From Leptotrichia buccalis C-1013-b (GTDB lineage Bacteria > Fusobacteriota > Fusobacteriia > Fusobacteriales > Leptotrichiaceae), in NCBI RefSeq assembly GCF_000023905.1, contig NC_013192.1, positions 1,550,001-1,614,000 on the forward strand: a stretch of 64,000 bases of DNA, read 5' to 3'. Position 1 is the first letter of the stretch. Each line of letters opens with the position of its first letter. The notes under the pieces were generated by a model. That model was not told the DNA's origin, made no database searches, and saw nothing but the letters and a program-made list of their open reading frames with translations. Positions 8,418 through 49,051 of this stretch are shown piece by piece. Both the position numbers and the translations under genes were made by a program.

Positions 8418-8535
8418 AACACTCTCACACTCCATTTCTTTCTCTTTTTCTTAAATGTGTTTAATAATCTTCTTAGATTAAGATTTTTATATTTTAATTA
8501 ATAATTTTTTCTTTATTTTATATTTTCTCTTTTTT

Positions 8536-8672
8536 TAACGCAAGGGAAATCAATCGCCATTTCCCTTGCATCCCTGGCTCGTCTAAACATTTTTTTGAAA
8601 CAAAATTGAAACTCGCTACGTACAACTTCGCTCAAACAGTCAATTTTATTTCAAAAAAATCACGACATTTTA
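8536..8672. repeat. two-hairpin dispersed element, copy A
   Basis: The element lies between the PLP-enzyme gene and the acetyltransferase gene. Hairpin 1 has perfect 11-bp arms (GCAAGGGAAAT 8540-8550, ATTTCCCTTGC 8559-8569). A linker with GGCTCGTCTAA follows. Hairpin 2 has 21-bp arms (8589-8609 and 8640-8660) with one mismatch, around a 30-nt loop containing CTCGCTACGTACAACTTCGC. It ends in AAAAAAATCACGACATTTT. Copies B (22907-23016) and C (39990-40200) share this plan. Confidence 0.7.
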
Positions 8673-8721
8673 ATTCAATTACAAACTATTATTTTGATTA
8701 AAAATTATTAAAAATAAATTT

Positions 8722-22748: not shown

Positions 22749-22906
22749 TATTTCACTTTTATTCTAATTCTTTTATAAAATATCAAATTAACTAGATTCA
22801 TTATTAAAAAATCTAACTTTTTATTTAATAACTATTCTCCTTTTAAATAGTAAATGTTTAATAAAGTTTGAATTACATATTTTATTATGTTTTTTCTTTT
22901 TTTCTC

Positions 22907-23016
22907 GCAGGATTGCTCATTGCCGCAAATCCTGCACCTATGGCCAGTCTATGACATTTTTCTGCACTGACAAAAAGCTCGCTATGCTAAAACAGTTTTG
23001 CCAGTACAGAAAAATG
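22907..23016. repeat. two-hairpin dispersed element, copy B
   Basis: The element lies between the converging PTS-GH32 and msmK genes. Hairpin 1: GCAGGATTGC (22907-22916) with GCAAATCCTGC (22925-22935), loop containing TTGCC. Linker with CCAGTCTA. Hairpin 2: 21-bp arms 22955-22975 (CATTTTTCTGCACTG...) and 22996-23016, with two mismatches, loop CTCGCTATGC. The plan is the same as copies A and C but the stem sequences are different. The remainder of the 22749-23149 gap is AT-rich without other clear signals. Confidence 0.6.
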
Positions 23017-23086
23017 CTTCGACAGATTAGTTTATACTAGATTCTATTTAAAAAGTGAAAATTATATTTTAATCATTTGAAAATAA

Positions 23087-23122
23087 TTAAAAACTCAGAT
23101 AACTTCCAAGCTACCTGAGTTT
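23087..23122 (-). terminator. terminator of the msm operon
   Basis: AAACTCAG (23091-23098) and CTGAGTTT (23115-23122) form a stem. On the minus strand it is followed by TTTTTAATTATTTT, ending transcription after msmK. Confidence 0.7.
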
Positions 23123-39839: not shown

Positions 39840-39989
39840 TAATACACCTCTCATTTTTTATTTTTTTCTTTAATTTTAAATACATTTAATCTATTTAAGA
39901 TAATATTTTTCCTTTTTATACTATTATTTTTTCTTTAACGAGATTTCGCTTATTATTTTTACTAAAATAATCGTTGTATCTAAACTCAA

Positions 39990-40200
39990 AATGTCGTGAT
40001 TTTTTGGAAATTAAATCGACTAAACACATTTATGTGTTTCTTTCGCCATAACTTCTATAATAATTCATTTGATAGAATTAAATTCACTCTGTAATTTGCG
40101 AAAGTGAGCGTAGTTTTACGTAGCGACTTTCAATTTTGTTTTCCAAAAATGCTTAGACGAGCTGGGTTTGCAAAGGAGATAGCGACTGTTCCCCTTTGCT
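39990..40200. repeat. two-hairpin dispersed element, copy C (expanded loop)
   Basis: The element is in opposite orientation to copy A. Hairpin 1: GCAAAGGAGA (40170-40179) with its partner ending CCCCTTTGC (to 40199), loop containing AGCGACTG. Linker AGACGAGC. Hairpin 2 arms: 39999-40019 and 40130-40150. Its loop is about 110 nt and keeps the TACGTAGCGAC/GAGCG core but adds an internal ACACATTTATGTGT hairpin and TTCGC/GCGAA arms. Outer sequence AAAATGTCGTGATTTTTT is identical to copy A (reverse complement). Confidence 0.65.
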
Positions 40201-40360
40201 TTTAAAAAAGAAAAAACATAAATATTATAGAAAAAATATTTATTAATAGTAATCTTAATTTTATAAAAATTATAAACAACTACTAATTTATTTTATTATT
40301 TTAAATAATAATTTTTTTACAATAAGTTTATTTTAACATTTTTTCATTTTTTTTTCAATA

Positions 40361-48974: not shown

Positions 48975-49051
48975 TGGTGGGACTGGTGGGGATCGAACCC
49001 ACAACCTACCGATTAAGAGTCGGTTGCTCTGACCAGTTGAGCTACAGTCCC
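48975..49051 (-). tRNA. tRNA-Lys (anticodon CTT)
   Basis: A complete 77-nt cloverleaf is read on the minus strand: acceptor GGGACTG/CAGTCCC, D arm GCTC...GAGC, anticodon stem ACCGA/TCGGT with loop CTCTTAA (anticodon CTT), variable loop AGGTT, T arm GTGGG-TTCGATC-CCCAC, discriminator A and encoded CCA. It reads AAG. Confidence 0.95.

Follow-up and report, generated by a model that had tools for sequence, protein, structure and literature searches.

The window analysed here, 64,000 nucleotides of Leptotrichia buccalis C-1013-b, holds three intergenic copies of a repeated element, referred to as A, B and C. Each of them consists of a short first hairpin, a linker and a long second hairpin, and carries at the apex of the latter a variant of the tip AACTCGCTTCGCTCARACA. 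A tRNA-Lys (CTT) at positions 48975-49051 is the sole RNA gene identified in the window. A first-pass annotation, made from the sequence alone, had already reported the three copies, and they are indeed present at the positions that it gave; the real units are longer than it stated. When folded as single-stranded DNA, copies A and B depart clearly from their shuffled counterparts (z = -6.6 and -4.0, respectively; 0 of 200 shuffles were as good), and the predicted fold of copy B contains 19 pairs in its second hairpin. The longest inverted repeat of the window is the one formed by A and C, which match at 81% over 118 nt. Both copies are assigned to a single family, F1. The parts of the three copies are given below in window coordinates.

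8484 to 8704 (approximate), + strand: copy A, whole unit, F1 family; based on the recurrent match limits of genus-wide hits and on the orthologous gap, empty in six genomes
8540 to 8569, + strand: first hairpin of copy A, 10 bp stem, loop TCAATCGCCA; based on covariation
8589 to 8660, + strand: second hairpin of copy A, a long palindrome; based on the fold
8610 to 8639, + strand: apical core of copy A, AACTCGCTACGTACAACTTCGCTCAAACAG, a long-loop version of AACTCGCTTCGCTCARACAG; based on the cross-phylum core
22855 to 23090 (approximate), + strand: conserved part of copy B, B family; the outer TIRs of other copies are missing
22907 to 22935, + strand: first hairpin of copy B, GCAGGATT / AATCCTGC; based on the fold
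22955 to 23016, + strand: second hairpin of copy B, 19 pairs predicted; based on the fold
22977 to 22996, + strand: apical core of copy B, GCTCGCTATGCTAAAACAG
about 39930 to 39954, - strand: degenerate 3' end of an F2 partner unit adjoining copy C, TTTAACGAGATTTCGCTTA on the + strand; based on comparison with F2 ends
39990 to 40280 (approximate), - strand: copy C, F1 family, its second-hairpin loop enlarged by an insert of about 85 nt
about 39999 to 40019 and about 40129 to 40150, - strand: arms of the second hairpin of copy C
40020 to 40104, - strand: loop module of copy C, CTTTCGCAAAT...GGCGAAAGAAACACATAAATGTGTTTAG, which stands in place of the GACAG of simple copies
40170 to 40199, - strand: first hairpin of copy C, loop ACAGTCGCTA

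These copies belong to a large set of dispersed intergenic elements of 220-340 nt that occurs throughout the genus, most members of which carry tens of copies. Copy A has 34 blastn matches in its own 2.47 Mb genome, where a covariance model of the first hairpin and linker (R1) finds 39 matches at E below 1. When 40 genomes were searched with R1 (this one and relatives), all 13 members of the genus were positive, with 1 to 69 copies each, and only three single marginal matches were found outside it. Besides F1, which includes A and C, copy B represents a separate family, and a third family, F2, pairs with F1 elsewhere; in the L. buccalis genome, F1 units often lie opposite an F2 or a B unit as an inverted pair. 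A hand count from the R1 matches of this genome revealed no replication-strand bias of F1. Family B, whose copy numbers are lower bounds, is at least as abundant, and most of its members, across loci and species, share 85-92% identity with copy B, which argues for recent activity. The elements are apparently still spreading in Leptotrichia. One genus member (G012) has 69 weak R1 matches, the best with an E value of 1.6e-4, and 42 tips; its copies probably represent another divergent family.

The pairing of the first hairpin is maintained across these copies. In 18 copies from the L. buccalis genome, 99.4% of the alignment cells are paired; in 111 copies from the genus (61 of them distinct) the figure is 98.6%, with double changes at 8 of the 10 pairs. 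None of 500 shuffles matched this, and slid registers were only about 49-64% paired. The F1/F2 register of the first alignment was set with N placeholders and the later, model-fitted alignment leans to its own structure, but the same answer was obtained from both. Since the pairs of the first hairpin change together, and shuffles and slid registers lie far lower, the argument that the first-pass annotation had drawn from three copies, namely that kept pairing under changing sequence reflects a selected structure, holds over many copies, which support selection or active maintenance. That annotation had made its finding depend on further copies in the genome and on covariation in a larger alignment, and the finding survived both checks.

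The second hairpin is organised differently. Its stems are quite different in F1, F2, B and a variant, B' (CTTTTATTTGCCCAACTC...), and in family B its arms pair no better than swapped arms, but the four groups have the tip in common, as AACTCGCTTCGCTCARACAG or as a variant or longer-looped form of it. The foot of this hairpin reads YGTC (CGTC or TGTC) in F1 and AGTC in B. Extra modules enter the elements at two fixed places, at the first hairpin and beside the tip, and the loop module of copy C recurs in other copies of the same genome. ERIC and BOX-type repeats are likewise modular and palindromic; they lie between genes, measure roughly 100-350 nt and contain precisely placed internal inserts or modules. 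The likeness is one of description and not of compared sequences, and what sets the present elements apart is their tip and the order of their two hairpins.

Comparison of orthologous gaps informs on the mobility of the elements. The gap that holds copy A measures 31-45 nt and is element-free in six genomes of the genus. Elsewhere it is filled by an F1 element (G009 and G005), by a B' element (G007), by an F2-F1 pair (G011) or by inverted F1 elements with inserts (G008 and G010), and different related elements are found at this site in four genomes. The copy A locus is a case of gain and of repeated use of one gap. In family B, many of 28 aligned copies reach TIRs (ATACTAAACCCC... and ...GGGGTTTAGTAT), and the full elements measure about 338 nt with TA at both ends. 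In the L. buccalis genome the TIR is matched 100 times and its reversed control 6 times; the resident IS630 elements carry a related TIR (15 of 18 positions). Judged by their ends, some members of family B resemble IS630-type MITEs.

This likeness may be extended to the whole set, the elements being ordinary IS630-type MITEs, that is, deleted or captured IS630 relatives moved at TA by the IS630 transposase, with the hairpins as passengers. The B copies lying inside TIRs (TACTAAACCCC..GGGGTTTAGTA) with TA at both ends and no ORF, the resident IS630 with its TIR TAGTAAAACCTATTTAAA, and, at 2289214, an IS630 remnant adjoining a small related element would all be explained in this way. Full B elements contain no transposase ORF between their TIRs, and no autonomous element with ORFs between B-type TIRs was found in the L. 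buccalis genome. Nevertheless, these TIRs are missing from some copies of the two-hairpin core, among them all three of the window (the TIR has no match there), and F1 copies end elsewhere. Moreover, two genomes with 67 and 58 R1 copies (G008 and G009, respectively) have no DDE_3 match, and a passenger sequence would neither covary nor have a tip that is found across phyla. It thus seems rather unlikely that these are ordinary IS630-type MITEs. The earlier description of the repeat as MITE-like is apt for some B copies, which lie between TIRs resembling those of the resident IS630, but not for the copies of the window. Another small element with TIRs, about 116 nt long (TACTATTCCCCGTTTAAATA ... 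TACTAAATCCCATTATAAAA), is frequently fused to B' elements at their outer end; its copies in the L. buccalis genome include 2134217-2134333, 424258-424374 and 816723-816838 (L183, L184 and L193) among others. At 2289734-2289853 of the same genome (L197), a fragment of an IS630-type transposase (LPPYSPDLNPI..., DDE_3) directly adjoins such a small TIR element; L196 and L197 resemble a partial tandem duplication.

The tip has a far wider distribution than the stems. Its exact sequence occurs in at least 118 stretches of bacterial genomes from many phyla, when about 4 would be expected in the whole collection (an estimate from collection size at uniform base composition). Among the matches listed are Proteobacteria, Bacteroidota, Clostridia, Nitrospira and others, with taxa such as Marinobacter, Variovorax, Stenotrophomonas, Nitrospira, Parabacteroides, Sphingobacterium, Lachnospiraceae and Cellulosilyticum. 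With up to 2 mismatches, the tip is found in 44 of 98 genomes of Fusobacteriota; at the same stringency it occurs 17 times in the L. buccalis genome (1 control match) and 53 times in G068, a Fusobacteriaceae-like genome of the same order (also 1 control match). At 84 of 123 sites among the matches listed, the tip caps a strong stem (score of at least 7), against 0.8% when the right flanks are swapped, and the scored stems reach up to 38 positions. The stems themselves are unrelated, as 96 different 8-mers adjoin the tip at the sites listed. A tip on a near-perfect but variable stem is what defines the proposed cross-phylum class, and this is also the arrangement found in Leptotrichia. No gene family is common to the neighbourhoods of the 118 loci among the matches listed, and the largest cluster of neighbouring genes resembles spurious ORFs running through the element itself. 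A search of the open-access literature for the tip and flanking motifs returned only primers and unrelated text.

A phage origin was considered and rejected: copy A has no match in phages and, although viral contigs contain 60 exact tips (0 for a rotated control), most of these represent one repeated context without a stem. In eight viral contigs (L386, L394, L404, L405, L410, L416, L425 and L436), mostly of 9-17 kb, the tip is followed by a constant right flank, ctggcgcacttcgtttgcggttcgactggttcggtgagagtgg, and preceded by a variable left flank, so that it looks like the boundary of an element or of an integration. As for the sharing of the tip among bacteria, GCGAAGC is a very stable DNA mini-hairpin, and convergence on such a structure could account for it.

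Other parts of the two-hairpin plan recur in the distant genomes. An upstream hairpin is present at 72 of 129 tip sites among the matches listed (12 of 120 control windows), and in 26 of these 72 its loop matches the linker over at least 6 nt, compared to 4.1% for swapped pairs. Examples of such complementary loop and linker sequences are CTTGAT/ATCAAG, CTTGAC/GTCAAG, CTTGAA/TTCAAG, CGTGCC/GGGCAC and CGCGGC/GGCCGC. The match between loop and linker is preserved in two subfamilies of G068 whose other parts recombine, and several copies of this genome (L352, L366, L370 and L376) have inserts at two fixed positions, inside the first hairpin and beside the tip, as in Leptotrichia. In addition, the linker mirrors the purine arm of the first hairpin in 15 informative cross-phylum cases against 3 (p = 0.0075, calculated on the same data where the pattern was noticed). 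The Leptotrichia elements follow this scheme in part. Loop and linker match over a short stretch and not consistently (GCCA/TGGC or GCTA/AGC in part of the F1 copies, no match in F2), and a purine mirror is not evident in their first hairpin; a pseudoknot between loop and linker was weighed for Leptotrichia but is not proposed. Since these two features are respectively partial and not evident, the membership of the Leptotrichia units rests on the tip, the order of the hairpins, the near-perfect stems and the insertion points; on this comparison they would be relatives in plan of the cross-phylum class and not proven members in every feature.

The mirrored linker recalls the class II intrastrand DNA triplexes known as BoxC, PIT and TM_ECO. 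Passages of Holder et al. 2015 (PMC4666352) describe these as intergenic sequences without strand bias, at unstable loci, and without promoter or terminator activity, and state the authors' view that purine-motif triplexes are unable to form in RNA. The present elements are likewise intergenic, multicopy, free of strand bias and located at unstable loci. The triplex layout of a pyrimidine arm, a loop, a purine arm and a third purine strand corresponds, in many cross-phylum copies, to the first hairpin and linker. Against this, those passages (PMC4666352) mention neither a second hairpin nor a conserved tip nor pairing between loop and linker, and the Leptotrichia first hairpin does not show the purine mirror.

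The composition of the stems bears on the nature of the folded molecule. Across phyla, G-T pairs make up 3 of 764 pairs in the first hairpin and 13 of 1061 in the second, and are no commoner among non-Watson-Crick pairs than random mismatches; in Leptotrichia they amount to 9 of 553 in the first hairpin and 1 of 541 in the F1 second hairpin. Functional RNA helices normally tolerate G-U. With respect to codirectional genes, the tip is oriented without strand preference (30:24), and Rfam 15 returned nothing above gathering score in the window except a tRNA, and nothing at ten cross-phylum loci. The scarcity of G-T pairs, the absence of a strand preference and the lack of an Rfam match therefore favour a single-stranded DNA fold over RNA, with the qualification that transitions alone would make about half of the rare mismatches G-T, as in the Leptotrichia first hairpin. 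A structured RNA acting in 3' untranslated regions, in processing, stability or termination, would also be in keeping with the strong covariation and with an enrichment at gene 3' ends (30 tips in convergent gaps and 8 in divergent ones). Yet with G-T at about 0-2% of the pairs, no strand bias, no Rfam match and no terminator-like site inside the window elements, it seems unlikely, and the RNA that the first-pass annotation had listed first among its candidates is disfavoured. As to intrinsic terminators, no GC-rich hairpin followed by a T run lies inside A, B or C on either strand; the sites found lie outside.

Another possibility is that the elements are double-stranded sites for a nucleoid or chromosome-organising protein. 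They are intergenic, orientation-neutral and near-perfect palindromes, and their arms could have been perfected by template switching, a process that can correct palindrome arms without selection. However, the conserved part is an asymmetric tip and not the stem, and the complementarity of loop and linker would be meaningless in duplex DNA, which makes this scenario highly doubtful. The protein-binding site that had been proposed for the repeat is compatible with these observations if the bound form is a folded single strand.

The resemblance to REP sequences also has to be weighed. GTAG- and CGTC-tagged REPs are dispersed palindromes located between codirectional and convergent genes, often as inverted pairs, and CGTC REPs have stems of 8-9 bp and loops of 4-5 nt (Di Nocera et al. 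2013, PMC3733652). The Leptotrichia elements are also palindromic, dispersed and intergenic, often form inverted pairs, and carry CGTC or TGTC at the foot of the F1 second hairpin. Nevertheless, this hairpin has a stem of about 20 bp and a conserved tip of about 19 nt, far longer than in REPs, and its tag varies, being AGTC in B. The combination of a CGTC (or TGTC/CCTC) tag with a stem of 8-9 bp and a loop of 4-5 nt was not found, the tag being present in F1 only. Mobilisation as REP/BIME elements by a RAYT (TnpA-REP) Y1 transposase is further contradicted by the distribution of this enzyme. Three genomes with 59, 58 and 67 R1 copies (G007, G009 and G010) have no Y1_Tnp match, whereas G006, of the same genus and nearly element-free (one R1 match and no tip), has four Y1 genes. 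Y1 counts do not track copy number, the suggestion of a REP-like repeat with a linked REP-type transposase fails, and such a mobilisation appears very improbable.

The reading that we favour, to which we would give about an even chance, is that the elements are mobile or selfish non-coding repeats that work as a folded single strand of DNA recognised by its tip, and that they are of a kind found across phyla. When exposed, for example during replication, the strand would fold into two hairpins separated by a short linker, the second of them long and topped by the sequence-specific tip AACTCGCTTCGCTCARACA. The stems could vary freely provided that a change in one arm is matched in the other, and the tip would be the part that is read. 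A predicted tip-recognising protein would copy, move or otherwise keep the element. In Leptotrichia, such elements would have spread through intergenic gaps, family B partly inside IS630-type TIR shells and F1 and F2 partly bare; the same two-hairpin plan and tip recur in many other phyla, where the first hairpin could often adopt a purine-motif triplex and its loop pair with the linker. The broader proposal of a trans-phylum superfamily of hairpins, with an invariant 19-nt tip read by a putative conserved single-strand-specific factor and with self-complementary but otherwise unconstrained stems, of which Leptotrichia would hold one lineage, is more tentative, its chances falling somewhat short of even.

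A common tip on unrelated stems points to an undescribed, widely distributed DNA structure, either mobile or protein-binding. Small palindromic repeats are common in bacteria, and the tip offers a concrete handle on what moves or keeps them, as its reader protein could be sought with a single oligonucleotide. Should the connection with triplexes hold, intrastrand triplexes, so far without a known function, would gain a place in a defined element. Finally, as the family is polymorphic between Leptotrichia species and one of them (G006) is almost free of it, its effect on these bacteria is directly comparable.
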